IMG/VR virus record: IMGVR_UViG_3300005563_000090
Span: 1-27,559 of that record
DNA: 27,559 bases
DNA from: a virus
Direction: 5' to 3' (one strand)
Part shown: piece by piece, positions 304-20,432 of the stretch
How the letters are laid out: each line of letters begins with the position of its first letter
Position numbering within the stretch: position 1 is the stretch's first letter
The notes under the pieces: model-generated
Told to the model about the DNA's origin: nothing
The model's input: the letters and a program-made list of their open reading frames with translations, nothing else
Database searches by the model: none
Made by a program: the position numbers and the translations under genes

Positions 304-641
304 GCGAAGCCGCAATCAACGTCGGCGGGGTCGCCCGGAGAGAGATCGGGTTCAAGCCCGGCCCTGTGTTCTTCGAACGAGACGGCGTGGTGATGTTCCA
401 GATCGGCCTCGACGCCTCCTCGATCATCGGCCCCTATCCCGCAAAGGAAAAGGACAAGATCGAATACGAGGGCGAGTGGCGCCGGTTCCAGGCGGAACGC
501 GCCGCTGGGGAGGCCCCGCCCACGATTGACGACGAAAAGGCCCGCATCCGCCAGGAACTCCAGCGGCTAGGCCTCAACCCCCATCACATGGCCGGGCTGC
601 CCAGGCTCCGCGCCATGCTCGAAGAGGCTCGCCGTGGCTGA
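300..641 (+). CDS. Hypothetical phage protein in head-tail cluster
   Basis: 113 residues. The start ATG overlaps the preceding stop (ATGA), which argues for translational coupling. The N-terminal half (to about residue 60) has a beta-rich pattern with FERDGVVMFQIGLDASSIIGPY. The C-terminal third is helical and charged, ending in an LGLNPHHMAGLPRLRAMLEEA segment. No signal peptide or membrane segment is visible. It lies directly before the adaptor gene, whose GTG start is inside this gene's last codons. I cannot assign a function. Synteny suggests a small virion assembly or structural protein. Confidence 0.75.
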   Translation: MSEAAINVGGVARREIGFKPGPVFFERDGVVMFQIGLDASSIIGPYPAKEKDKIEYEGEWRRFQAERAAGEAPPTIDDEKARIRQELQRLGLNPHHMAGLPRLRAMLEEARRG

Positions 642-1350
642 TCTCCTCACCATCGTCCGGCAAAGCTGCCGACTGCTCTCCCTGGAGCCCCCGGATGAGG
701 TGGTGGACTCGCCCGACGCCCAAGTGCAGCTCCTCTACCAACTCGCCATCGAGGAAGGCGAAGAGCTTTCCACCAACGGTGATAAGGACTGGCAGGTCCT
801 GACCCAGCAGAAGATATTCTACACCGTCGCCGATCCGGTCCAGGTCGATGCGGTCCCTGATGACTTGGATCATTTCATCGATAACAGCTTCTTCAACCGC
901 ACCACGCGTTTGCAGATGGTGGGGCCGATCACGCCGCAGATGTGGCAGGCGATCCAGGCCCAGCCGCAGCTCAACCTTGTCTACTTGGCGTTCCGTCAAA
1001 GGGACGGGGCGTTCCTGATCACCCCAACGCCAGCCGCCGATAACGAGATCGCCTATGAGTACGTCTCCAAGAACTACGTCCAAGCGGCAAACGGGGATCT
1101 GAAGGCGACCTTCACCGCCGACACCGATACGCCCCTGCTTCCTGACGTTCTGTTTCGTCTCGGAATTCGCTGGCGGTTCCTCAAGTCGAAGGGCCTCGAC
1201 TATTCCCAGGACTTCGACACCTACCAGCGGCAGGTTCAGCAGATGATGTCCAGGGACGGGGGGGCGACAAAGTTGGATGTCACAGGGCGGACGCTCTACA
1301 ACAGCTTCGGCTTTCCGAACCTTCCATTGGGCAATTTCCCCGGCGGCTGA
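634..1350 (+). CDS. Head-tail adaptor protein (SU10-adaptor / P22 gp4-like class)
   Basis: 238 residues, GTG start inside the previous gene (8-base overlap). The layout matches phage head-tail adaptors that follow portal and coat genes: an N-terminal helical segment (LTIVRQSCRLLSLEPPDEVV), a polar LLYQLAIEEGEELSTNGDKDWQ stretch that recalls the usual adaptor 'LL...EL....DW..L' pattern, a beta-rich middle with LVYLAFRQRDGAFLITPTPAADNEIAYEYVS, and a C-terminal helical part (LLPDVLFRLGIRWRFLKSKG...YQRQVQQMMSRDGG). In this family the protein forms a ring below the portal that connects the capsid to the tail. Assignment is from family pattern and synteny; the exact subfamily is uncertain. Confidence 0.8.
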   Translation: MADLLTIVRQSCRLLSLEPPDEVVDSPDAQVQLLYQLAIEEGEELSTNGDKDWQVLTQQKIFYTVADPVQVDAVPDDLDHFIDNSFFNRTTRLQMVGPITPQMWQAIQAQPQLNLVYLAFRQRDGAFLITPTPAADNEIAYEYVSKNYVQAANGDLKATFTADTDTPLLPDVLFRLGIRWRFLKSKGLDYSQDFDTYQRQVQQMMSRDGGATKLDVTGRTLYNSFGFPNLPLGNFPGG

Positions 1351-3161: not shown

Positions 3162-3869
3162 ATGTCTCTCCTCCTGCTGTTCAACCAGCCCGGCGGGGCC
3201 ACCACCACCATAACCCCAGGCTTGGGGACACTGGTCATCACCGGCTATGCCCCGGCCACGGTATCGGCCGGAGTGGTCACGCCCGGCCTCGGCACGCTCG
3301 TCATCACCGGCTACGCGCCGCTCTTAACGGGACCCTACACGGTCACCCCAGGCGTGGGGACCCTGACGATAACCGGCTATACGCCGACGCTGGTGTTCAC
3401 GTCGGTCATCAAGCCGGACGTCGGAGCCCTGGTCATCACCGGTTACGCGCCGGCCGTCACAGCCGATGGCGTTGTCTCGCCTGGTGTGGGCCAGCTCGTC
3501 ATCACGGGCTACGCGCCAACCGTAAAGAACGCCCAGGTGATCGTCCCGGGGCGCGGGCAACTGGTCATCACCGGCTATGCGCCTGTCCTCGCGGATACGG
3601 GCGGAACAGCGGTTAGTCCCGGCCTCGGCGAGCTAGTCATCACTGGCTACGCCCCCTCGGTCGAGTTCGGGCGCCCAGCCAATGAGCTGATCCCGATCAT
3701 CCAGGACATGGAGATATTCCGCAGGCAACTCAACGCCATTCTTTATGCGCTGCAAAGAGCGCAACCGTTCTTCGGAGATGATTTCCCGGTGGACGCAATA
3801 GAAGGTCAGTTGTTTGTGCAGGCGGGTGTTTTGTATCAACTTGAAGCCGGGGTCTGGACAGCGGTATGA
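3162..3869 (+). CDS. Repeat-containing tail/fibre protein with seven PGxGxLVITGYAP repeats
   Basis: 235 residues. From about residue 18 to 166 there are seven tandem copies of a roughly 22-residue unit built on PGxGxLVITGYAP followed by a variable linker; the sixth copy has a slightly longer linker. The unit alternates two short beta strands and is expected to form a repetitive beta structure. The last 70 residues are different: PANELIPIIQDMEIFRRQLNAILYALQR is helical, then a short LFVQAGVLYQLEAGVWTAV tail. An AGGAGG ribosome binding site is placed just before the ATG, and the stop overlaps the next start (ATGA). Probably a fibre or shaft component; the helical end may be a trimerisation or docking region. 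Confidence 0.75.
   Translation: MSLLLLFNQPGGATTTITPGLGTLVITGYAPATVSAGVVTPGLGTLVITGYAPLLTGPYTVTPGVGTLTITGYTPTLVFTSVIKPDVGALVITGYAPAVTADGVVSPGVGQLVITGYAPTVKNAQVIVPGRGQLVITGYAPVLADTGGTAVSPGLGELVITGYAPSVEFGRPANELIPIIQDMEIFRRQLNAILYALQRAQPFFGDDFPVDAIEGQLFVQAGVLYQLEAGVWTAV
3197..3660 (+). repeat. Seven-copy ~66-bp coding tandem repeat
   Basis: The DNA encoding the PGxGxLVITGYAP units repeats at about 66 bases, with the block CTGGTCATCACCGGCTA recurring in near-identical form in several copies. Copies differ at many third codon positions and in the linkers, so this is an old, diverged array held by protein selection, not a recent duplication. Confidence 0.75.
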
Positions 3870-5509
3870 TCAGGCAAGCACTTGGACGGGTGCGGCAAGC
3901 GCAGCGCACCAACGCCAGCCAGTCGCAAACAGCGGTGGGAAGGTCGGTTCCGGCCCCCGTTGGGGGGTGGAACGCCAGCTCGGCCCTGGCGGACATGAAG
4001 CCATCGGACGCGGTGATCCTCGACAACTGGATTCCGCGGGCGGCCTACGTGGAAATACGTAAAGGCACCCGGGCTTGGGTGACGGGCGCTCCGGGTCCTG
4101 TAGAGACCTTGATGACCTATCGGGGGTCGAGTCCCGACGAGCTTTACGCGGTGTCCGATGGGGATGTCTACGACGCCACCTCGGAGGGGGCGGCGTTCGA
4201 AAGCCCGGTCTACACCGGACTTTCCAATAGCCGGGTCCAGTTTCGCAACTTTGCCAATGACGGGGGCCAGTTCCTGATCTGCGTGAACGGCGAGGACACG
4301 CCTTTTCGCTACAATGGGTCCGGCTGGGCCACCCTGCCGATCACCGGAACCTCAGGGTCCATCATCCTGACGTCGTCGAACCTGATCGACGTGGAGATGC
4401 ACAAGCGACGCCTGTTCTTCGTGGAGAAGGACAGCCTGCGGGTCTGGTTCCTGGAGGTCAACGCGATCCAGGGAGAGGCCCAGCTATTGGATCTTGGGCC
4501 GGTGTTCCAATTGGGGGGAAGCCTCCAATGCATCGGCACATGGACGCTGGATAACGGGACGGGGGTGGACGACCTGATCGTCTTCATCACCGATCAGGGG
4601 GAGGTCGCGGTCTATCAGGGGACCGATCCGGCGGACGATACCAACTGGGTGCTGTCCGGGGTCTATCATGTGGGGATTCCGCTTGGCCGGAGAGCCCTGT
4701 TCAAGTTCGGCGGCGACCTCAACCTCCTGACGACCGTAGGCGTCATTCCGCTTTCCCAGGCCCTCCGGGTTGATCGGGCGCAGGAGAACACCGTCGCGAT
4801 CACCGCGAAAATCCAGAACGCCTTTTCTCAGGCGACCCAGTCCTATCAGGACAACTTCGGCTGGTTCGGCATCGCCTACCAGAAGGGGTCGCTCGCCATC
4901 TACAACATCCCCACGGTCGATCTCACCGAGGCGGAGCAGTACGTCCAAAACCTCCAGACCGGCTCCTGGTGCAGGTTTACCGGGCTCAACGCGATCTGCT
5001 GGGCCATAGCCGACGACAACCCTTATTTCGGGTCGCCATCAGGGGTCTATCGTTGGGATACGGGTGTCACCGACGCCGGGGTCACCCTAACCGCCGACCT
5101 GAAGACCGCATTCAACTACTTCGGGGATCGGGGACGGCAGAAGCGGTTCACCATGCTTCGCCCGACCCTGAACACCACGGCCAACATCAAGCCGGCGGTG
5201 GAGATGCTGGTGGACTTCCATGAGCGCGAACCGGTCGCGGTCCCCACCACGATCATCGATCGATCCCTGACGCTTCGCATCCAGGAGAACTGGACCACGG
5301 TAACCGGGCTTGGCTACTGCGGGGCGGTCAGAATGCGGGCGGCCCTTATGCTGGAGGCCGGCATCGTCTCGGAACTCGCTATCGGGGACGGGGACCTGGT
5401 TGGGACCGGGGACGGCTATACCATCGCGACAGACTCCGGCGAGCCCGTGGACGCCCAGATTCAGTTCATCAGCGCCAACGTGCTGTTCCAGCCGGGGGGG
5501 CAGCTCTGA
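3866..5509 (+). CDS. Large tail/nozzle or packaged-DNA stabilisation-like protein
   Basis: 547 residues, start overlapping the previous stop (ATGA). The N-terminal motif VPAPVGGWNASSALADMKPSDAVILDNWIPR, followed by a chain of beta-strand repeats (ELYAVSDGDVYDAT, FRNFANDGGQFLICVNGEDTPFRYNGSGW, KRRLFFVEKDSLRVWFLE), is typical of a conserved podovirus tail protein family with a beta-propeller-like core, related in position and length to P22 gp10 stabilisation proteins. Such proteins close the portal channel and form the tail tube or nozzle. No signal or membrane segment. The family resemblance is strong by pattern; the exact name (gp10-like versus nozzle) is inference. Confidence 0.75.
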   Translation: MIRQALGRVRQAQRTNASQSQTAVGRSVPAPVGGWNASSALADMKPSDAVILDNWIPRAAYVEIRKGTRAWVTGAPGPVETLMTYRGSSPDELYAVSDGDVYDATSEGAAFESPVYTGLSNSRVQFRNFANDGGQFLICVNGEDTPFRYNGSGWATLPITGTSGSIILTSSNLIDVEMHKRRLFFVEKDSLRVWFLEVNAIQGEAQLLDLGPVFQLGGSLQCIGTWTLDNGTGVDDLIVFITDQGEVAVYQGTDPADDTNWVLSGVYHVGIPLGRRALFKFGGDLNLLTTVGVIPLSQALRVDRAQENTVAITAKIQNAFSQATQSYQDNFGWFGIAYQKGSLAIYNIPTVDLTEAEQYVQNLQTGSWCRFTGLNAICWAIADDNPYFGSPSGVYRWDTGVTDAGVTLTADLKTAFNYFGDRGRQKRFTMLRPTLNTTANIKPAVEMLVDFHEREPVAVPTTIIDRSLTLRIQENWTTVTGLGYCGAVRMRAALMLEAGIVSELAIGDGDLVGTGDGYTIATDSGEPVDAQIQFISANVLFQPGGQL

Positions 5510-5637
5510 TGCTGTGGACCGGTCGCAACTCTGGCTGGATGTGTAAGAACTCGGCCGCATCCGGGCTGATAGGGCTATGTCTCCCGTCCCTGCGCGTCTG
5601 CCTTCCGCGCCGCCACAGCCTAAAGAGCATACCATGA
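5509..5637 (+). CDS. Small coupled ORF, 42 residues, unknown
   Basis: A 42-residue ORF (MLWTGRNSGWMCKNSAASG at the start, then a Leu/Cys/Arg-rich end) fills the gap between two larger genes. Its ATG overlaps the preceding stop as TGATG and its own TGA overlaps the acetyltransferase ATG as ATGA. This perfect double coupling is hard to explain by chance and is the main support. It contains three cysteines and a short hydrophobic centre (SGLIGLCLPSLRVCL). No function is recognised. It could also be a non-functional linker that only couples translation. Confidence 0.5.
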   Translation: MLWTGRNSGWMCKNSAASGLIGLCLPSLRVCLPRRHSLKSIP

Positions 5638-6212
5638 GGGTCGTCTACGGCAAGGATCAGCTCGTCGCGAAGTGGGTCGCGCTGCACATTCCACAGATGG
5701 CCCACAATCCAGATTTCGGACCATGTGTCGCAGTTGGCATCGTGGACAGCAACGAAACACCTATCGGGGGGGTGGTGTGGCACAATTACCATCCACATTA
5801 CAGGTCAATCGAGGTTTCCTGCGCCGCGGAAAGCCCCAAGTGGTTGACGAAACCCATAATATCTGAGATTTTCCGATACGCGTTCGACCAACTTAAGGTC
5901 GTTCGATGCACCGCGATCACACCGGCCAAGCCGACGAGCGCATCACGGTTCCTTGAAACGTTTGGATTTCGCCCCGAGGGCGTCATCCGCAAGGGACTTG
6001 GCGATGACGATGCTGTGGTCTGGGGCCTCCTGGATTCCGAGTGGAAGTTCAACCGGTTCAACGACCGGCGTCCCGTCTCGCACGTCAAGCGGCGACCTGA
6101 CCCCAAGTTACGCCATCAACCGCGTGACGGAGCGTCTTCTTATCAACGCCAAGGTCCCGAGCAACGGCGCAAATCCCCTCGCCAGAAGCGACGCGGCGTC
6201 GTGCCTCAATAA
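5634..6212 (+). CDS. GNAT-family acetyltransferase, tail probably altered by HNH insertion
   Basis: 192 residues from the ATG at 5634, chosen because an AAAGAG site lies 6 bases upstream and it overlaps the preceding small ORF; a longer start at 5577 lacks these. The GNAT fold is seen in VAVGIVDSNETPIGGVVWHNY (strands 2-3), the helix KPIISEIFRYAFDQL, VVRCTAITPAKPTSASRFLETFGFRPEGVIRKGL (strand 5 to 7 with the usual N/S-x-x-S-xx-F/LE-xx-GF pattern). GNAT genes at this spot are common in podophages; the target is unknown. The last 43 residues (from about 6085) are Arg/Gln/Pro rich and lie antisense to the HNH gene, so the native C-terminus was probably near residue 150 and the tail is read-through of inserted DNA. 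Confidence 0.82.
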   Translation: MRVVYGKDQLVAKWVALHIPQMAHNPDFGPCVAVGIVDSNETPIGGVVWHNYHPHYRSIEVSCAAESPKWLTKPIISEIFRYAFDQLKVVRCTAITPAKPTSASRFLETFGFRPEGVIRKGLGDDDAVVWGLLDSEWKFNRFNDRRPVSHVKRRPDPKLRHQPRDGASSYQRQGPEQRRKSPRQKRRGVVPQ

Positions 6213-6604: not shown

Positions 6605-6633
6605 ATTATAGCGCTTGCCGTCTCTCCAGCCAA
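6605..6633 (-). promoter_or_regulatory. Sigma-70-type promoter for the HNH gene, apparently leaderless
   Basis: On the minus strand TTGGCT (6628-6633) and a perfect TATAAT (6605-6610) are separated by exactly 17 bases. The -10 with its two upstream bases reads GCTATAAT, close to the alphaproteobacterial GCTANAWC form. The predicted transcript start falls 0-2 bases before the HNH ATG at 6597, and the minus strand has no Shine-Dalgarno in front of this ATG, so the message would be leaderless. Confidence 0.6.
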
Positions 6634-8798
6634 GTGGAGATTTAGTCATCGGCAAGTCAACACCCGCGCCTCCGACGCCAATCGATCCGGTCGCCACAGC
6701 AAACGCTCAAAGCGCGGCCAATATCAACACGGCGACGCAGCAGCAAAAGCTTAACCTGATTAACTCTCAGACCCCATACGGGTCGATTACATACAACCAG
6801 GACCCTAATTCACCGGGCGGGTATACTCAGAACGTCTCGCTGAGCGCCGATCAGCAGCAGATGTATAACAGCCTGACTAACGCCCAGAAGCTGGCGTTGG
6901 GGCTGACGCAAGATCAGATCGGTCGAGTCCAGAGCGCGTTGGAATCTAATCCCACGTCGCCCAACCTCCAGATGTCCCTCGACTACCACGGCAACCCGAT
7001 CAATCCGGGTCAGATCGTGTCGAATATCGGCGCGCCCCAACTCAACGGGACCATCGGAAACGCCGGGAGCCAGATCACCGGCTTCTCCGGATCGGGACCC
7101 CTTCAGACGGGCATCAACACCAACCAGCAATTCCAGACCTCGTTCGACAAGGGCGGCAACGTCGGAACGTCGATTGGTGGGGTGGACCCCATCACCAAAT
7201 CGTTCAGCCCTGGAAGTTCGTCCATCACGTCGTCCATCGGCCAGCAGCCTTCGATCACTGGCTCGTACAACACGCCGGGGGGGCTTCAGAGCAGCATCAA
7301 CACCGGAGCCCCGCTTCAGAGCAGCTTTCAGAACACCAGTCTCCAAAGCGCGGTAGGGCCGACCGATTTCACCCAGGACCGCAATGCGGTCTCGGACTCT
7401 GTGTGGCAGCAGGCGGTTTCGCGGCTCGATCCGCAGTACGGAAAGGCCCAGAACCAGCTCGACGTCCGGCTGGCCAATCAGGGCATCGGCATCAACTCGG
7501 CCGCCTATGGCAACGCCCAGGACGTGTTGGGGCGACAGAAGAACGACGCCTACAACCAGGCCCTTTATTCTGCGATCCAACAGGGGGCGAACGAACAGAA
7601 CACCCTCTTCAATCAGAAGCTTCAGCAGGGCCAATTCGCCAATCAGGCGGCCGGGCAGCAATACGCCCAGAACCAGGGCTTGGCGCAGTTCGGCAATGAC
7701 GCGGCCTTGGCTGATTTCAATCGGAACCTTCAGGCGGGGCAGTTTGGCAATCAGGCTCAGCAGCAGGCCTACACCCAAGCCCAGCAGGGCGCGCAGTTCC
7801 AGAACCAAGCCCAACAACAGGGCTATGAGCAGGCCATGGGCGCGGCGGATCTTCAGAACGCCGCAGCGGCTCAGCAGTTCGCCCAAAACCAGAACCTCGC
7901 ACAGTTCCAGAACCAGGCGCAGCAGCAAGGCTATCAGCAGGCCCTCGGGACCGCGCAGTTCGGCAACGAGGCGCAGGCCCAGAAGTTCGGCGAAAACCAG
8001 ACCCTGGCCCAATTCGGCAATGACGCCCTGTCGCAGGACACTACGCGCCAGATCGCGGCGATGCAGGCTGCCAATGCGGCGCAGGGACAGCAGTTCTCGC
8101 AGAACCAGGCCCAGGCGCAGTTCGCCAACCAGGCGCAGGCGCAGCAGTTCTCCCAGGAGCAGGCGCGCCAGCAGGCTCAGAACCAGGCCGCTTTACAGCA
8201 GTGGCAGATGGCCTACGCCAACGGCCAGTTCCAGAACGCAGCCCAGGCGCAGCAATACGCCCAGGCGCTGGGGATGGACCAGAACGCCTTCAACCAAGCG
8301 CTCCAGACGGCGCAGTTCGGGAACACGGCCCAGAACCAGAACTTCGCCAACCAGCTCCAGGCGTCGAACCTGCCGATCAACCAGCTGATCGGCCTTTTGG
8401 GCCTGGGCCAGGTGCAGCTTCCGAGCGGCCCGGGCTACACCCCGACGCAGGTTGCGCCCACGGATATCCTGGGGGCGCAGTCCTTGGCGGCCCAGCAGCA
8501 GCAGAACGCCTACAACTCGCAGATGCAGCAGAACAACAGCCTGCTCAGCGGTCTGTTTGGGCTCGGCTCGGCCGGCATAATGGCGTTCTCGGACGAACGC
8601 TTGAAGCGCGACGTCAAGAAGGTCGGCGCCCGTCCCGATGGGCTCGGCGTCTACCTCTTCCGCTACCTCTGGGATCAGGCCGTCCATCTCGGCGTCATGG
8701 CCCAGGAGGTGTTGTGGGTGAAGCCCGAGGCCGTTGTGAGAGACGCCAGCGGGTTCCTGGCCGTGGACTACGGCAAGCTTGAAATGGGGATTGCTTAA
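6615..8798 (+). CDS. Large Gln/Ala-rich virion protein with nonapeptide repeats and C-terminal S74-type chaperone domain
   Basis: 727 residues, TTG start after a GGAGGT site. N-terminus: GKSTPAPPTPIDPVATANAQSAANINTA and QTPYGSITYNQDP, a conserved opening of a podophage virion protein family. Residues about 120-260 are Gly/Ser/Asn-rich repeats (SITSSIGQQ, LQSSINTG). Residues 332-586 are an array of 9-residue units in which Phe or Tyr recurs at every ninth position. The C-terminus from S659 (SDERLKRDVKKVG...YLFRYLWD...HLGVMAQEV...VDYGKLE) is a short peptidase S74 / intramolecular chaperone domain, which in tailspikes and fibres self-cleaves at the Ser after trimerisation. TAATG overlap with the next gene. 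Likely a fibre-like or internal virion protein; which one is not settled by sequence. Confidence 0.82.
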   Translation: MPSLQPSGDLVIGKSTPAPPTPIDPVATANAQSAANINTATQQQKLNLINSQTPYGSITYNQDPNSPGGYTQNVSLSADQQQMYNSLTNAQKLALGLTQDQIGRVQSALESNPTSPNLQMSLDYHGNPINPGQIVSNIGAPQLNGTIGNAGSQITGFSGSGPLQTGINTNQQFQTSFDKGGNVGTSIGGVDPITKSFSPGSSSITSSIGQQPSITGSYNTPGGLQSSINTGAPLQSSFQNTSLQSAVGPTDFTQDRNAVSDSVWQQAVSRLDPQYGKAQNQLDVRLANQGIGINSAAYGNAQDVLGRQKNDAYNQALYSAIQQGANEQNTLFNQKLQQGQFANQAAGQQYAQNQGLAQFGNDAALADFNRNLQAGQFGNQAQQQAYTQAQQGAQFQNQAQQQGYEQAMGAADLQNAAAAQQFAQNQNLAQFQNQAQQQGYQQALGTAQFGNEAQAQKFGENQTLAQFGNDALSQDTTRQIAAMQAANAAQGQQFSQNQAQAQFANQAQAQQFSQEQARQQAQNQAALQQWQMAYANGQFQNAAQAQQYAQALGMDQNAFNQALQTAQFGNTAQNQNFANQLQASNLPINQLIGLLGLGQVQLPSGPGYTPTQVAPTDILGAQSLAAQQQQNAYNSQMQQNNSLLSGLFGLGSAGIMAFSDERLKRDVKKVGARPDGLGVYLFRYLWDQAVHLGVMAQEVLWVKPEAVVRDASGFLAVDYGKLEMGIA
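7608..8372 (+). repeat. 28-unit 27-bp (9-residue) coding repeat array
   Basis: Units of the form F/Y-x-N-x-A-x-x-x-Q repeat with an exact 9-residue step from Phe332 to Phe577 (then Leu586), with one 2-residue slip near the end (around residue 556-568). At DNA level the step is 27 bases; recurrent blocks such as CAGTTC and AACCAGGC mark each unit. A few positions replace the aromatic by Leu, Thr, Ala or Trp. Confidence 0.8.
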
Positions 8799-9880
8799 TG
8801 GGCACGTCAGCACCAGCGGCCGGCGTTCCCGCGCCGAACCCAGACGCGAGTGCAGGGGGGCTTAACGCCACCCTCATCCAACTTCTTACCGGTCAGGCCC
8901 AAACCGGCCCGCAGGCGCAAACACCAGCGGCGCCGAGCCAGGACCCTTGGCTCCAGATGCAGCAACAGGCTCACGATGCGGCCAATAGCCAGTGGGGGAC
9001 GCTCCAGTCCCCAGGCGCCACTCCGTATCAGGTCGGCTCGGCGCTGCCTAAAGGGCAGAATGCGGACGGTTCGTGGGCTTCGGGAGAGGACTGGGCGGCT
9101 CAAGCGCAAAAGAACCAGGATGCGCAAACCGCCAAGTTTGGCGCGTCTCCGGGCATCAACTACAAGGGGCAGACCGGCCCTTATGGCCCGGTAGGCGACC
9201 TCGCGCCCAACCAATATGTCGCGCGGGCCGATCAGTGGGCGGCGAATGGGTCAGGCCCAGCGATTGCGCCAGCGATACAGCAGGCGATCAACGAAGATCC
9301 TCGCCTGTCCGACCTCTATTCCAACCTGCCCATCCAGAAGATCAACAATGTCGGGAATGGCTTCGGCGTCCTTCCTGGGGCGCTTACCCCTGGCGTGGCC
9401 TTACACAACGCGGGCCAGATTCCGGCGGCCTATAACGATCTCCTGAAATATTCCGCCCAGAACCCTGGGAGCCCGCAAGGAATGGGCAACCTCGGACCCA
9501 ACGTGGCGCAATACGCCACAGCCCACCCCTACGCTAGCGAAACGACAGGGGTCAACCGGAACCCGGTCGCGGGCTCAGCGAGCTACTACGACTATAGCTC
9601 ACCGAACGGCAATCCCGCCAACTCCGCAGGGGCGCAGAAGGCAAACGCTCAGCAGCCATCTGCACTCAACGCAAACCCGCAATTGCAGATGCTGGTCCAG
9701 TTGCTGATGGGCGCGCAAGGGGGCCAGACCAAGCCGCCCGCGGGGGCTGGTGGCTTGCCGCCGGCGCCGAACGCCATGGCGCCTCAGGCAATGTCCCCCG
9801 GGTTCCAGACCGTTCCGGGCGCCAACCCGCTCCTGAGCCGATCCCAGACCCAGCTCAACGCCCTGAATAACTACAGGTAG
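8798..9880 (+). CDS. Putative internal virion / structural protein, low complexity
   Basis: 360 residues rich in Ala, Pro, Gln, Gly and Asn. The N-terminal and C-terminal thirds are low complexity; the middle (WASGEDWAAQAQKNQDAQTAKFG, then GPYGPVGDLAPNQYVARADQWAANG, then AIAPAIQQAINEDPRLSDLYSNLPIQKINNVGNGFGVLPG) looks folded. No membrane segment or catalytic motif is seen. TAATG overlap with the preceding gene and an 8-base gap to the next put it inside the ejection-protein set. Function not recognised; a core or ejection protein of the virion is the positional inference. Confidence 0.72.
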   Translation: MGTSAPAAGVPAPNPDASAGGLNATLIQLLTGQAQTGPQAQTPAAPSQDPWLQMQQQAHDAANSQWGTLQSPGATPYQVGSALPKGQNADGSWASGEDWAAQAQKNQDAQTAKFGASPGINYKGQTGPYGPVGDLAPNQYVARADQWAANGSGPAIAPAIQQAINEDPRLSDLYSNLPIQKINNVGNGFGVLPGALTPGVALHNAGQIPAAYNDLLKYSAQNPGSPQGMGNLGPNVAQYATAHPYASETTGVNRNPVAGSASYYDYSSPNGNPANSAGAQKANAQQPSALNANPQLQMLVQLLMGAQGGQTKPPAGAGGLPPAPNAMAPQAMSPGFQTVPGANPLLSRSQTQLNALNNYR

Positions 9881-9888
9881 CCCGCGAG

Positions 9889-12063
9889 ATGGCAACGACG
9901 ACCGCGATCTCTCCCTCTGGGGTCTACACGGACTGGAACACCGGTCCGGAAGCCGCGCCTTACATCAAGCGGTCAAAATACCTCGCGGCTGCGCTCCAGG
10001 GGATGCAGGACAGCGGCCAGCATATCCAATCCTACCCGGAACTTGGCCTGAAACTGCTGGCCAACGCGGTCCTGGCGTATGGGGACAAGCGGAACGACGA
10101 GAAGCTGAAAGCGGCCCAGCAAAAGGACATCGGCAACGAGATGTCCAACATGCTGACGAGCCTAGGCGGCTCCAGTGCGCCAGCCTCTCCCGCGGCGACC
10201 ATTGCGACACCCGATACGGCGCAGCCCGACACGACGATTGCCGCGGCTCCGCAATCCGCGCCGATCACATCGTCCGAACTTGCGCCGGCCACTCCGGCAG
10301 CAATGGGGCGCCCAAGCCGCGACCTCGACCTCCTGGCTCGCACCCTGATCGGCGAGGCGGGGAACCAGGGTCCGCAGGGCCAACAGGCCGTGGCCCAGGT
10401 GATTCTCAACCGGGCCAAGCAAAGCGGCCAGCCCATCGCCGACGTGATCATGGCGAAAGGGCAGTTCGAGCCGTGGAACAACCCCCAGAAGCGCTCCCAG
10501 CTGCTTCAGCTCGATCCGAACTCGCCGCAGTATCAAGAGGCGCTGACGAACGCCCAAGCCGTCCTCAACGGCTCGGCGCAGCTTCCCCCGGAAATCGCCG
10601 GGGCCGACCACTTCTACGCCCCGAAGGCGCAGGCGGCATTAGGGCGGCCGACGCCTTCGTGGGACAATGGAACCGGGATCGATCTTGGGGGTCACCGGTT
10701 CTTCAACCTGAACGGCGGCCAATCGCCAGCCCCAAGCGCACCCCCGCAGGGCTCCGCTCCGCCGGCCCCCATGGGTGCGCCTCCGCAGCCACAGATGGCC
10801 AACGCCCAGCCGCAGCTCTCGATGCCGGAACTGGCAGGCCCTCAGGGCGGCCCACAGCCCTTCCAGATTGCCCAGAACGGCGGACTGCCTCCCATGCCAT
10901 CATCGGCTATGGGCGGGGCTCCTGCGGCTCCTCAGGCTCCTCCGGGGGGTCACGGAGCTACCGCAGACGAAATTGCGCTGATCAAGAGCCTGATGGGCAG
11001 TGGCAACCCGCAGAAGGTCGAGGCGGCCCGGCAATTGGCGCTGAAAATCCAGCAGCGGATCGCTGCTCCGCCGTCCTACAAGATCCAGATGATCAACGGG
11101 GTCCCGGCCTATGTGCCGGAAGACCCCCGCGACGGCGGCATGTTGCCGATCCAGGTCCCCGACAGCTTTCGCTCGCAAACCCAATCGGCCGAGAGCGCGG
11201 GCATCCCCGCGCCCCATGGCACAACCTATACCGTGGACCCGCTCGGCAATCGAACCGCGATCTATACGCCGGCGCCCGGGTATCAGCAAAACGGGAGCGG
11301 CCTTGCTCCGATCCAGGGCGGCCCGAACGATCCGCGCGCGCCACAGAACGCTTATAGCGCGCCGTACAAGATCGAGGGCGCGCCGGGCCTTTATGTCAAC
11401 TCGCCGACCGGCAAGCCCGAACTGGCTGCGGCGTCGGAATATGGGCCGGCGCAACTGGCGGAGCTTCGGAACAACATCCTGAAGTCGGATGAGTACAAGA
11501 CCGCGACCGAATCCTACGAAGCCTTCCAGGCGATGAGGGACAATGTCGGGAAGGCGAACGGCATGTCTGCCTACTCGATCCGCGACACCTTCGCTCGCGC
11601 CATCAACCCTGGCGCTGTCGCTCGTGTGGGGACAATCCAGGCCATCGAACACGCCCAAGGCGTTCCGGAGCAGATCAAGTCCTTCCTGCTGAACCTGAAG
11701 GGCGAAGGCAACATGTCGCCCGAGGTCCAACAACAAATTCTGGATGCGACGCTGCCGTTCGTCAAAGCCAACATGAACAGCGCCCAGCGGCTAAACCAAT
11801 CGAATGCCGACTATGCGCACCGCCATCATATTGATCCGCTGGATGTCACGGCGCCGCTTCCGGAGTTGCCGGGCCGCTTTGTTGTGCCTAAGGTTGCGCC
11901 CAATGGATCAAACCCACTACCCGGGAATGGCGCTCCTGCCGGTCATAACGGCGTGGGTGGTGTTCCTGCTCGTCCGGTCCCTGGTGGGCCGCCAGTCAAA
12001 GCGCCGGATGGACACTCCTACACCGTCGACCAGAACGGTCGATACTATCGGGTGGATCCATGA
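9889..12063 (+). CDS. Virion protein with SleB-like cell wall hydrolase domain
   Basis: 724 residues. Residues 145-272 match the SleB / hydrolase_2 pattern of peptidoglycan hydrolases: DLDLLARTLIGEAGNQG with the likely catalytic Glu156, QQAVAQVILNRAKQSG, IMAKGQFEPWNN, then ADHFYAPKAQAALGRPTPSWDNG and GGHRFF. The region after it (about 275-350) is Pro/Ala/Gln linker, followed by a long helical C-terminal part with NLKGEGNMSPEVQQQILDATLPFVKANM. The gene lies among ejection proteins, so the hydrolase probably opens a local hole in peptidoglycan during DNA entry rather than causing lysis; the endolysin is separate (14455). The stop overlaps the next start (ATGA). Domain assignment is solid; the entry role is inference. 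Confidence 0.82.
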   Translation: MATTTAISPSGVYTDWNTGPEAAPYIKRSKYLAAALQGMQDSGQHIQSYPELGLKLLANAVLAYGDKRNDEKLKAAQQKDIGNEMSNMLTSLGGSSAPASPAATIATPDTAQPDTTIAAAPQSAPITSSELAPATPAAMGRPSRDLDLLARTLIGEAGNQGPQGQQAVAQVILNRAKQSGQPIADVIMAKGQFEPWNNPQKRSQLLQLDPNSPQYQEALTNAQAVLNGSAQLPPEIAGADHFYAPKAQAALGRPTPSWDNGTGIDLGGHRFFNLNGGQSPAPSAPPQGSAPPAPMGAPPQPQMANAQPQLSMPELAGPQGGPQPFQIAQNGGLPPMPSSAMGGAPAAPQAPPGGHGATADEIALIKSLMGSGNPQKVEAARQLALKIQQRIAAPPSYKIQMINGVPAYVPEDPRDGGMLPIQVPDSFRSQTQSAESAGIPAPHGTTYTVDPLGNRTAIYTPAPGYQQNGSGLAPIQGGPNDPRAPQNAYSAPYKIEGAPGLYVNSPTGKPELAAASEYGPAQLAELRNNILKSDEYKTATESYEAFQAMRDNVGKANGMSAYSIRDTFARAINPGAVARVGTIQAIEHAQGVPEQIKSFLLNLKGEGNMSPEVQQQILDATLPFVKANMNSAQRLNQSNADYAHRHHIDPLDVTAPLPELPGRFVVPKVAPNGSNPLPGNGAPAGHNGVGGVPARPVPGGPPVKAPDGHSYTVDQNGRYYRVDP

Positions 12064-14093
12064 CCACCCTGACGCCGGTCGCTGGCGATCCCTTCGCCTC
12101 CGGGACGTCACGCCTCCTCGGCCTCCCGCAAAGAGATAGCCTCGGCCAGACTGGCGGCCAGCCGGTCGGTTATGACCCGTTCATGTCCCCGGCTGAAGAT
12201 GCCGGCCGCGCGTTCGTATCGCATCTCGGCCCCGGTGTCGCCAATCTCGCGGGCGCTCCCGGCGATTTCCTGTCGGCGGTGGATGCGGCGTCGAAGTGGA
12301 CCGCGAAGAAGGTCTACAACGCCCTCGGCCAGGAATACCCCGAACAGGGGGCGATGACCGACAAGCAGGCCCGCACCATCCTGGGCGTGACCCTTCCGAC
12401 CAGCCAAGAGCTTCGCACCGAACAGAACAAGGCCTTCGGGACTCCACACGCCCCCCACACTCAGGCGGGGCGCTATGCGGCGGCGATCTCCGAGCAGACC
12501 CCCGCGGCGCTGCTTGCCCCTGGTGGCCCGCTCGCCAAGGGGATGGTGGCGGTTGGTTCCGGAGCGGGTGGGGAGTTTGCCGATCAGGCCACCGTAGGGA
12601 CGTCGTTTCACCCCTATGCCAGGCCCGTTGGGCAGATCGTCGGGAGTCTTCCTGGAGCGATCGTCGGGGCGATGACCCCGTCTCCTCAAAAGGTGGTTGG
12701 GCAAGCGCTCGGCGACCTCTCCGATCAAGAAAGGTCCGCCGCGATCGCTCTGATGCAAGACGCCCAACAGCGCGGCATCCAGCTTACCCCGGCTGAAGCG
12801 GTCCAGCAGGTCACCAACAACGGCACCGGCATGGGCCGGATGCAGCGGGTGATTGAGGGGACGAAGCGCGGCCAGGACCAATTGGCTCCCATGTTCGCCC
12901 AAAGGCCAGATCAGATACGGCAAGCGGGGATGACCTTTGCCGACCAGATCGCGCCACCGAACACGCAGCCTTCGCTCATCGGCCAGCAGGCGCAGGAAGC
13001 CGCTCAAGGCGGCCTGGACCTCACACGTCGGACCATCAACAACGCCGCGGAGCCGCATTACCAAGCCCTTCGCGGCCAGATCATTCCCGACGCGCAGTTC
13101 GCCCAACTGACCGCAGACCCGTCGTTCCGCGCCGCCCTGGCCGAGCTTAGGGGCAACCCGGAACTGAATGGCCCGATTGTCGGACTCCCGGATAACGACC
13201 TGTCCGTGGTCAACGAGGTTGTCAAACACCTCGACACAGCAGCCACCGCGGCCCGGCAGACCGCTGCCAACCCGGCGGGCAACAACCGGCTAGCATCTCT
13301 TCGTGGCGACGCCCGCTCGGCCGCCGATGCGTTGGCTGCAAACGTGTCGCCGGACTGGCGCCAGGCGCGGGACATCGTCGCCCAGGGGCGCCAGCAATAT
13401 CTCGATCCGCTCAACGCGGGGCCTGCGGGCCAGATCGCACGCACGAACAGCGTCCCCACACAGACCGGCGCTCTTTATCCAGCAAACCCGCTGGAGGGCG
13501 CTCCTGGCGAGACGACGCAGGCCCTCCAGCTCATGCGCGCCGCTGAGGCTGAAGCCGCCCAGCGCGCCGGCGGCGCTATAGCAACGCCAGGTGTCGGGGC
13601 TGACCTGACCCGCCAGCATCTGGTGCGGGCGCTGAACGAGGCAACGGCCAGTCTGCAACCGGGGCCGAACCAATGGGCTGGGGCGAAGTATGCCAAGGCC
13701 ATTGCCGGCAACCCAGAGCAGGCTGCGGCCCTTCGGGCAGGCGTTGGCACGGTTGCGGGGCCAGATACCGCGGACGAACTCGATACCCTCCTGAACGTCA
13801 TGCGCGCCACGGGCAAGCGCCAGCCCCCTGGCTCCATGACTGCGTTCAACTCGGAAGATCTGAAAGGGCTTGGTTTGGCCCTCCCGGAAACCAAGTCCAG
13901 CATCGGTAATCCCCTGACGTGGATCAGGAAGGGCGAAACCGCCCTGCGCGGCGCCCAACAGCGGCGCAATACCGATGCCCTGGTGCAATTCCTGTTGTCC
14001 AACCCTGACGAGGCGGATCGCTTCCTCGCGGGCGCATCTCGCTACGCCCCGAACCGCCAATCGGCTCTCGGCAAAGCTCTGAGTGCGCCATGA
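12060..14093 (+). CDS. Putative internal virion (ejection) protein
   Basis: 677 residues. The first 100 residues include a DPFMSPAEDAGRAFVSHLGPGVANLAGAPGDFLSAVDAA segment. Residues about 140-205 form a Gly/Ala/Val-rich, weakly hydrophobic stretch (LLAPGGPLAKGMVAVGSGAGGEFA and IVGSLPGAIVGAM) of the sort found in ejection proteins that meet the inner membrane. The remainder is mostly helical and Gln/Ala-rich (LTPAEAVQQVTNNGTGMGRMQRVIEGTKRG, AEPHYQALRGQ). Size, composition and the position after the SleB protein and before lysis genes match large internal virion proteins of podophages. No catalytic motif is recognised. Confidence 0.75.
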   Translation: MTTLTPVAGDPFASGTSRLLGLPQRDSLGQTGGQPVGYDPFMSPAEDAGRAFVSHLGPGVANLAGAPGDFLSAVDAASKWTAKKVYNALGQEYPEQGAMTDKQARTILGVTLPTSQELRTEQNKAFGTPHAPHTQAGRYAAAISEQTPAALLAPGGPLAKGMVAVGSGAGGEFADQATVGTSFHPYARPVGQIVGSLPGAIVGAMTPSPQKVVGQALGDLSDQERSAAIALMQDAQQRGIQLTPAEAVQQVTNNGTGMGRMQRVIEGTKRGQDQLAPMFAQRPDQIRQAGMTFADQIAPPNTQPSLIGQQAQEAAQGGLDLTRRTINNAAEPHYQALRGQIIPDAQFAQLTADPSFRAALAELRGNPELNGPIVGLPDNDLSVVNEVVKHLDTAATAARQTAANPAGNNRLASLRGDARSAADALAANVSPDWRQARDIVAQGRQQYLDPLNAGPAGQIARTNSVPTQTGALYPANPLEGAPGETTQALQLMRAAEAEAAQRAGGAIATPGVGADLTRQHLVRALNEATASLQPGPNQWAGAKYAKAIAGNPEQAAALRAGVGTVAGPDTADELDTLLNVMRATGKRQPPGSMTAFNSEDLKGLGLALPETKSSIGNPLTWIRKGETALRGAQQRRNTDALVQFLLSNPDEADRFLAGASRYAPNRQSALGKALSAP

Positions 14094-18757: not shown

Positions 18758-19897
18758 CTATCCAACTGTTTTCGCAGGCTTTTCAGACGCGTCTCCGTCT
18801 GCCGGATCATCGACTTCGGGAGTCGACCGGGACACCGCGGCCAGCGCGTCCCTCAAATCCTCCTCCATAGCGTGCGCGTAAACGAGGGTGGATTGCATGC
18901 TGGAGTGGCCGAGCAGCTTCTGCGTGATCCGCAGGTTGCCGGTCTTGCGAAGCATCTGCATGCCCGCGTCGTGGCGCAGGTCATGCGCGCCGCGGGCACC
19001 CTTTGACGCGCGCAGGCCCGTATCGGTCACAGCGCGCCCCAGGCGCTTCTGGGCATGCCAGTAGGTGATGGGGACGAGTTCGCCCGCCTCCTCGCGGAAC
19101 CAGGGCGTATCAAGCCCCGCGGCGCGCGCCCTGCCGATCCGCGCGGCCAACATGGCAGCGTCCTCCGGCATCAGCGGCAGGGCGTGGATCTGGCCGTTCT
19201 TGCGCCGCTTATGGATCGTCAGTCGCAGGGCAACCGGATCCACGTCGGCCAGGCCGAAGAACATCTCGGACAGCCGCAGGCCATAGCGGCCCATCATCCT
19301 GGCGAAGTCCTCAAGGTGCAGCGGCACCGCGGCGAACAGCTTCGCGACCTCAGCCCTGGAGTAGTTCTTCGGCTTCGGCTTGGGCTCGGGAAGCGTCAGC
19401 TCCGCCCAATCGATCTCGGGGAAGGCGACCGGTTCTCCCTTGCCGTCATTCAGCATCTTCCGCGCCAGCTTCAGGATGGGGCGGATGGTGGCGACGATGT
19501 CTCGGTTGATGGTCGCGTTCGTAGGCGGTCGCTTGCTACGCGTCAGCCGCCCGCGCCGGCGCTGTATCGCCTCGATGATATCCGAGAAGGCGACTTCGTT
19601 GACCGGCTTGGTTTTGCCGATCAGTTCGACGGCCACGGATGCGCGGTCTTGCAGTTCGTCGGCAGTCTCCAGGTGCGCCTTCGTCTGCCACCAGATCGTG
19701 GCTGCGTCGTCCAGCGTCGGGATGCGGCGCGCTGCGGGGCGGTTTAGTTCCCCCCGTGCCGCCGCGACCCGCTTGACTTCTTCGACGCGCTCCGCCTTTG
19801 AGCGAGTCGTTGCTCCCGTAGAGCCGTGATACCGACGACCTTGGTATTGGAAGTCGTAGTGCCAGAACCGCCCCTTGCCCGGCTTGTAGACCGACAC
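18758..19897 (-). CDS. int: Tyrosine recombinase integrase
   Basis: 379 residues from a GTG at 19897, with GGAGAG just upstream; the frame is open further to 20194 but that part is a shadow of the excisionase gene. N-terminal arm-binding region: YKPGKGRFWHYDFQYQGRRYHGSTG. A core-binding helical domain follows (about 60-170). Catalytic domain: R208 in GRYGLRLSE, Lys in HKRRKNG (230-233), H305 and R308 in HDLRHDAGMQML, H331 in LLGHSSMQST, nucleophile Y340 in LVYAHA. All expected residues are present. It points at attP and its last codons touch the tRNA-like segment. It catalyses site-specific integration and excision at a tRNA-Leu gene. Confidence 0.94.
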   Translation of the reverse strand: MSVYKPGKGRFWHYDFQYQGRRYHGSTGATTRSKAERVEEVKRVAAARGELNRPAARRIPTLDDAATIWWQTKAHLETADELQDRASVAVELIGKTKPVNEVAFSDIIEAIQRRRGRLTRSKRPPTNATINRDIVATIRPILKLARKMLNDGKGEPVAFPEIDWAELTLPEPKPKPKNYSRAEVAKLFAAVPLHLEDFARMMGRYGLRLSEMFFGLADVDPVALRLTIHKRRKNGQIHALPLMPEDAAMLAARIGRARAAGLDTPWFREEAGELVPITYWHAQKRLGRAVTDTGLRASKGARGAHDLRHDAGMQMLRKTGNLRITQKLLGHSSMQSTLVYAHAMEEDLRDALAAVSRSTPEVDDPADGDASEKPAKTVG

Positions 19898-20157
19898 GGC
19901 CTCTCCACCCTTTCCCCGAACCGCTCGCCCGCCAAGTAGGCGCGCAAGTCGGCCTCGGTATATCGGCGCGTCGAGGCGCCCACTATCACGCTGCGGATGA
20001 CGCCGCTTTCCGCCATCGCCCGCAAGGTCTTTTCGTTCAAGCCTAGGATCGGCGCTGCGGCCTGCGCGGTGATCAGGGCGCTGTCGCTGAAGGCGCGGGC
20101 GAACAGCGCCTCTGTTGCGGCTCCCAGGCCGCGAGGTTGTTCGGCGAGGGCGCTCAT
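19744..20157 (-). CDS. xis: Excisionase-like helix-turn-helix protein overlapping int
   Basis: 137 residues. Residues about 27-77 (SALITAQAAAPILGLNEKTLRAMAESGVIRSVIVGASTRRYTEADLRAYLAG) match the MerR-like winged helix of excisionases / HTH_17 proteins. This is a natural place for a directionality factor, directly before integrase. The remaining 55 residues are Arg/Ser/Gly-rich and 154 bases of this gene overlap int in another frame, with no stop before 19744. The ATG overlaps the preceding stop (ATGA). The Xis function is inferred from fold and place. Confidence 0.72.
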   Translation of the reverse strand: MSALAEQPRGLGAATEALFARAFSDSALITAQAAAPILGLNEKTLRAMAESGVIRSVIVGASTRRYTEADLRAYLAGERFGERVERPCRSTSRARGGSGTTTSNTKVVGITALREQRLAQRRSASKKSSGSRRHGGN

Positions 20158-20432
20158 TCCGTCGCCATCCTCTCGGTCGTGGGGGTGGGCTCATCCAGGT
20201 CTTCCTCCATTTGCAGGAGCGCGAGCTGGGCGGCTTTCAGCGAGGCGCGGGTCGGCTTCCCCTTCATGACCAGCCAATAGCTTAGACTCGGCCCGGTGCT
20301 TGCGGAGACCACACGGGCGCCGCGAAACGATAGCTCATCGATGAGGATGTGCTCGGACGGTGGCATGTAGCCTCGCCTCCAGGCGTCGTAATCGACGGGT
20401 GACAGGACGGGCGGGTGCTTGGTTTCAGCCAT
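20154..20432 (-). CDS. Hypothetical early protein
   Basis: 92 residues from the ATG at 20432, which has a strong GGAGGGGGAG site; the longer frame to 20549 lies over the end of the upstream gene and is Gly/Pro-rich. Residues 10-75: LSPVDYDAWRRGYMPPSEHILIDELSFRGARVVSASTGPSLSYWLVMKGKPTRASLKAAQLAL, ending in an acidic DLDEPTPTTERM tail. No known motif. Coupled to the excisionase-like gene by ATGA overlap, so could be a partner of lysogeny control. Function unknown. Confidence 0.68.
   Translation of the reverse strand: MAETKHPPVLSPVDYDAWRRGYMPPSEHILIDELSFRGARVVSASTGPSLSYWLVMKGKPTRASLKAAQLALLQMEEDLDEPTPTTERMATE

Follow-up and report, generated by a model that had tools for sequence, protein, structure and literature searches.

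The closest described counterparts of the protein studied here, as far as position in the genome is concerned, are the first ejection proteins of podophages (P22 gp7, T7 gp14; IVPB), which are encoded after the gp14/IVPA-like gene and before the other ejection proteins, and which normally are near 200 aa long (181–240 aa; PMC8954989). In the study of phage phiGT1, a GNAT gene was assigned as IVPA, i.e. the homologue of P22 gene 14, and matches to IVPB and IVPD were noted in Mx8 (PMC10386132). As for architecture, the tape measure proteins of long-tailed phages, in which aromatic-marked repeats are gained and lost as units and repeat number reads as length, show a mixed 11-11-18 period (PMC3271669), and the nonad alpha/beta coiled coils share with the present protein a spacing of nine residues (Hartmann 2016; PMC4786415). 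S74 proteins such as endosialidase and MyRF carry at their C-terminus the PF13884 domain, usual on tail fibres, with a Ser and a Lys five positions apart (S587/K592 in MyRF, S911/K916 in endoNF).

We analysed one stretch of viral DNA of 27,559 nucleotides (IMG/VR record IMGVR_UViG_3300005563_000090, hereafter the window), which encodes a protein with two repeat arrays, A and B (Table 1). The protein belongs to phrog_6121, a family labelled as virion structural protein, and shows weaker similarity to phrog_4287, whose label is DNA ejection protein.

Table 1. Features of the window that bear on the repeat protein (positions are those of the window; aa, residues of the repeat protein).
Feature	Position	Strand	Details and basis
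Adaptor (tubeA, SU10_adaptor-like)	634..1350	+	phrog_6013, E 3e-44; PF24175 just below cut-off
TubeB/nozzle protein, phrog_5107	3866..5509	+	Gene of this slot in phiGT1 described as tubular tail B, P22 gp10-like
GNAT-like protein in the P22 gene 14 (IVPA) slot	5577..6212	+	phrog_4470, E 2e-32; PMC10386132
Repeat protein gene	6615..8798	+	727 aa, TTG start; phrog_6121 family, PHROG match E 8e-61
N-terminal base domain, conserved, aa 1–112	6615..6950	+	Alignment; helix, three strands, helix
Array A, aa 113–259, about 14 units of about 10 aa	6951..7391	+	Autocorrelation (10 and 20); length coupled to that of array B
Module 1, aa 260–317, helical hairpin, proposed stalk tip	7392..7565	+	Alignment; AF2
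Array B, aa 318–572, between conserved modules, 14 units of 18 aa	7566..8330	+	Periodicity; AF2 helices
Aromatic positions F332 to F577, spacing 9	7608..8345	+	Sequence count
Tandem DNA repeat inside array B, 108 bp, 2.0 copies, 76% match	7790..8005	+	
Module 2, aa 573–631, conserved family block	8331..8507	+	Alignment; module profile
Glycine-rich hydrophobic tail, aa 632–658, proposed mature C-terminus	8508..8588	+	Hydropathy; ends of S74-less homologues
S74/intramolecular chaperone autocleavage domain, aa 659–727, Ser659 + Lys664	8589..8795	+	Pfam PF13884
Cell-wall hydrolase domain protein, second ejection slot	9889..12063	+	PF07486, E 1.6e-12; synteny
Large protein, third ejection slot	12060..14093	+	Position only

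The genes follow the order adaptor, tubeB, GNAT, repeat protein, hydrolase or other protein, and large protein, with one extra gene (8798–9880) between the repeat and hydrolase genes of the window. The same order holds in EBPR podovirus 2, in Sulfitobacter phages and in Mx8 (which differs downstream), and the array-bearing loci examined keep it as far as they extend. No tail-tube gene was recognised in the operon, which contains a podophage gene set only. Judged by gene order, the repeat protein occupies the first ejection-protein slot, as P22 gp7 and T7 gp14 do; the view of the first-pass annotation that it may be an ejected virion protein draws support from gene order only. It is the slot that we claim and not the family, because no homology to either protein was found (hhalign probability 0.1% for each, with single sequences as targets). 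The PHROG families also differ (598 and 805 for the P22 gp7/T7 gp14 kind vs. 6121), and, unlike those small proteins, members of the present family range from 238 aa (the shortest possibly partial) to 1199 aa. Whereas the first ejection proteins are characterised by several transmembrane helices, the repeat protein has no clear one (best 19-residue hydropathy 1.18, in one stretch).

Some other genes of the window deserve mention. The phrog_5107 label 'amidase, lysis' looks wrong for the gene at 3866–5509, which synteny and the phiGT1 notes indicate to be a tubeB/P22 gp10-like nozzle. Between adaptor and tubeB, a 235-aa protein (3162–3869) without any match among Pfam families contains about six repeats of about 24 aa, of the type VTPGLGTLVITGYAP. 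An HNH endonuclease gene (PF13392; 6085–6633, minus strand), possibly a homing insertion, lies between the GNAT and repeat genes. The gene at 18758–20194 (minus strand) reads, from its sequence, like a tyrosine recombinase (integrase), and the phage is therefore probably temperate.

Relatives of the repeat protein were drawn from IMG/VR and from named phages, and 72 homologues (43 + 29), less than 80% identical, were analysed. Locus searches were run with single proteins, since the family has too few conserved stretches for alignment queries; 42 new matches, many of them probably fragments, had no usable anchors. Scans of genome contigs gave no relative in the first scan and two Rhizobiaceae loci in the second. 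The base domain, module 1 (RLDPQ..LANQGI..S.AY; in relatives RLDPQ..LANQGI..GS.AY) and module 2 (RNQPINEI.AL.SG.QV..P in relatives, also RNQPINEI.ALLSGSQV) are common to all relatives. The variable parts are the two arrays on either side of module 1, A preceding it and B following it, with 0 to about 33 units. Cultured homologues with clear anchors have zero units, bar one-unit cases such as Mx8, and no already-studied phage bearing the arrays was found among the cultured homologues checked (0–1 units); the environmental genome MW202489 has one unit. Among Rhizobiaceae phages and prophages, unit numbers of 0 and of about 7 both occur, so that host family alone does not set the length of the variable region.

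Array B had been described in the first-pass annotation as an exact nine-residue aromatic repeat of 28 units. In steps of nine from F332 (codon at 7608) to residue 548, F, Y or W is found at 21 of 25 places, the exceptions being L413, T476, A485 and A521; the single slip of two residues reported for the stretch occurs after 548, and is followed by F559, F568 and F577, which brings the count to 24 of 28. A single phase holds 21/25 aromatics of the region, whereas 20,000 shuffles averaged 5.3 and never gave more than 11. The spacing is thus real, but the repeat is not exact as to sequence, nor are nine residues its unit, since both self-identity within the region (0.18 at 9 residues, 0.37 at 18, 0.43 at 36) and the indels of homologues give 18. 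The homologues do keep the aromatic phase: of the 484 spacings between successive aromatics in B, 282 are exactly nine (54 homologues, not all distinct).

The lengths of B point to a helix. Dividing |B| by 18 leaves, in the 41 well-anchored proteins, only remainders of 3, 6, 10, 14 or 17, five classes that are separated by whole helix turns and exclude half units; they account for 69/70 array lengths. A scan of periods from 3.0 to 4.55 residues gave a single peak at 3.60 residues (R 0.89; 0.38 or less elsewhere), and random lengths never exceeded R 0.50 in 20,000 trials. Homologues differ in |B| by multiples of 18 or by whole helix turns, and in no case by 9 alone. As nine residues would leave a helix rotated by half a turn, this is the behaviour required of a continuous helix, which would have to change by 18. 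On this comparative evidence, the true unit of array B is 18 residues, or five whole helix turns, and nine is the aromatic spacing only; the aromatics alternate on opposite faces of the helix, 180 degrees apart. AF2 predicts helix, with moderate confidence, at 296–465, 475–552 and 556–583 of the window protein, i.e. over 296–583 with two short breaks, and at 201–323 of the homologue L018. We infer that array B is a continuous straight alpha helix. The first-pass proposal of a long, straight, non-heptad helical rod, with 18 residues making five turns, agrees with both the phase optimum and the AF2 helix; the flat sheet of helices or tube wall that went with it received no such support.

The array that precedes module 1 had been overlooked. 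Array A consists of glycine-rich units, e.g. GPLQTGINTN or GGLQSSINTG, and comparison of the homologues indicates that it grows in step with array B, unit for unit, their unit numbers being equal. The lengths follow |A| = 8 + (|B| − 3) × 10/18; a free fit gave |A| = 7.6 + 0.566|B| (R2 0.993, residual SD 4.6 aa, n = 39 with B < 400; L028, with weak anchors, and L048, with an inserted domain, were left out), the slope of 0.566 ± 0.008 lying about one standard error and a half from 10/18 = 0.556. Independent contrasts gave r 0.992 on a tree from which the arrays had been left out, and the control segments, i.e. the N-terminal part and the tail, showed no correlation with |B| (rho 0.19 and −0.14). 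Array A is too long for the rule in L045 and L072, whose A units measure 11 and 12 aa, respectively, but the numbers of units in A and B agree nonetheless (16.6 vs. 16.2 and 6.4 vs. 6.4); in L054 it is about one unit too long. A two-unit superperiod is also shared by A and B (rho 0.67, n = 21, uncorrected for relatedness). Covariation of charge between the arrays (rho 0.70) was dropped as evidence, because module 1 correlates equally well with both.

The rule was written down before the scan for further relatives, which supplied 29 new proteins sharing less than 80% identity with the earlier set and among themselves. In 27 of these, |A| deviated from the prediction by −3 to +6.3 residues; the two misses (L181 and L148) have an extra non-repeat stretch inside A. 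|B| fell in the five predicted classes in 28 of the 29 (8 expected). In array A of L048 and L181 there is an inserted domain of the type AYLAANPDV...HY..YG..EGR.

Close relatives show the coupling directly. The modules of L184, L190 and L191 are 98–99% identical, and their B/A lengths differ by 72/40 residues, i.e. exactly four B units and four A units between near-identical proteins, and by 144/80; L184 and L190 share 99.9% identity along 2.4 kb of mostly upstream DNA. The remaining close pairs differ by 18/10, 36/20, 54/30 and 108/60. No case of B changing without A was found among 31 close pairs, and changes in A only were confined to the inserted stretch of L181 and to differences of 1–2 residues. 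The positions of the changes also match: in ten indel events, the gaps in A and in B are the same number of units away from module 1, on its two sides. The mean mismatch is 0.59 unit for an antiparallel arrangement vs. 4.18 for a parallel and 2.60 for a random one (P 2e-5), some gap positions being uncertain by about one unit; the ten events were picked to avoid double-counting, and all 15 pairs gave P 2.3e-4.

Such coupling implies, in our reading, an antiparallel stalk registered unit for unit between a conserved tip and a conserved base. In the AF2 model, module 1 (pLDDT 92–96 at 270–320) is a hairpin made of helix 252–288, a turn and the start of the long helix, so that the end of A would lie next to where B starts; A running back along B is then the simplest arrangement. 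Array A is low-confidence coil in AF2 monomers, and contact with B is thus not directly predicted. The base domain is modelled with pLDDT of about 80–90 over most of its length. Over about 250–331 the model resembles known antiparallel helix hairpins, although such matches are common for helical models; VIA matches are largely confined to the hairpin and do not reach the level that is required for helical proteins, a Foldseek search against the PDB gave nothing at E ≤ 0.001, BFVD matches are mostly unnamed S74-type proteins, and the family profile retrieved from the PDB S74 domains only. With 27 Å per unit (18 × 1.5 Å), each A residue would cover about 2.7 Å, which suggests an extended chain; the equal unit numbers likewise make the rod probably a helix plus an extended chain rather than helices alone. 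The stalk would be about 38 nm long for the 14 units of the window protein, and 0–90 nm across relatives.

In antiparallel coiled-coil hairpins such as SMC arms, two arms must likewise match in length. Unlike SMC arms, the arms of the putative stalk differ, an 18-residue helix unit facing an extended unit of about 10 residues, and unlike tape measure proteins the unit is 18 and not 11, with a second, different array coupled to the first unit for unit. Our searches found no description of these arrays in the literature, and unit-for-unit matching of two unlike repeats appears to be undescribed. That the two arrays pair antiparallel, unit for unit, as a new architecture whose length evolves as both gain and lose units in concert, near-identical phages differing by 11–22 nm with the same tip and base, seems to us somewhat better than an even guess.

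The C-terminal S74 match scores 25.5 bits (curated cut-off 22), and Ser659 and Lys664 have the spacing of the MyRF and endoNF dyads. The tail before it is the most hydrophobic stretch of the protein. Thirteen S74-less homologues end mostly 23–35 residues past module 2, and S74-bearing homologues have the Ser 20–43 residues past it; together with the Ser-Lys dyad, this suggests that S74 is cut off, leaving the glycine-rich hydrophobic tail, and probably the domain cuts itself off. Unlike in other S74 proteins, the domain is here on a stalk in an ejection slot and is dispensable in the family. In L079–L081 and L028 it is replaced in place by a domain of the type CWVAREVYG..NPKW..FR.W, without Pfam match, which is perhaps another self-removing or chaperone domain. 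In L091 (MW202675, 3176–6733), the S74 motif lies inside a 1185-aa protein annotated as internal virion protein D and is followed by an apparent lytic transglycosylase region; there S74 may separate fused ejection proteins.

All in all, we consider the repeat protein likely to be a stalk of variable length, encoded where P22/T7-type podophages have their first ejection protein. Array B would form one straight helix, with array A folded back along it, the module 1 hairpin as far tip, and a base made of the N-terminal domain, module 2 and the hydrophobic C-terminal tail; S74 would help the oligomer to assemble and then cut itself off before Ser659. The number of units would set the distance from tip to base, and the stalk, ejected ahead of the DNA, would keep the two a defined distance apart, within or above the cell envelope.

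The most serious competitor, which we nevertheless hold to be less probable, is that B helices of several subunits close into an alpha-barrel tube for DNA, with A in the grooves and units setting tube length. Aromatics on opposite faces would suit helices with a neighbour on each side, the sequence is poor in charged residues, and DEV gp72:gp73 does form a helical tube (PMC10925440); S74, however, suggests trimers, too few for a DNA-wide tube, and one helix face may be covered by A instead. Trimers are what is expected if the protein were a tail needle or central fibre outside the nozzle, not ejected, with the repeats setting needle length. S74 domains trimerise fibre proteins (PMC8326128) and, being usual on tail fibres, count against the ejection-slot explanation; the repeats suit a trimeric helical rod, and no separate needle gene is present between tubeB and GNAT, unlike gp26 in P22. 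We regard a needle as unlikely, as the gene, directly behind the gene-14-like GNAT and ahead of the hydrolase, is placed like that of P22 gp7, and only two ejection proteins would remain if it encoded a needle. Moreover, there is no profile similarity to P22 gp26 (single sequence as target), vB_PspP-H6/1 has in this slot an S74 protein with the annotation ejection protein, and 13 homologues lack S74.

The length law would also result if A and B made no contact and each spanned the same externally fixed distance, their lengths matching indirectly. This is improbable, because it predicts neither matching unit numbers where A units have 11 or 12 aa nor indels equally far from module 1. We attach very little weight to a nonad alpha/beta coiled coil as in Tcar0761, with nine residues making a helix and a beta layer: the spacing is the same and such nonads exist, but lengths never change by 9 alone, the optimum is at 3.60 residues, and AF2 predicts plain helix, all of which argue for a continuous helix with an indel unit of 18. 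Finally, the Q/N/A/G-rich composition and the coil predicted for A would fit low-complexity linkers of drifting length and no fixed structure, an idea to which we give practically no credence in view of the 18/10 coupling over 0–33 units, the helix phase and the prospective test.

With so exact a coupling between the lengths of two separate parts, the repeat protein is a rare case in which comparative sequence alone yields the order and register of contacts within one protein. For the ejection apparatus of short-tailed phages, which is poorly understood, it would provide a countable ruler with 27 Å per unit, and it would offer a natural template for rods of a desired length. The coupling also imposes a constraint on array growth, in that both arrays must change together, and makes it testable whether the reach of the stalk matters for infection.
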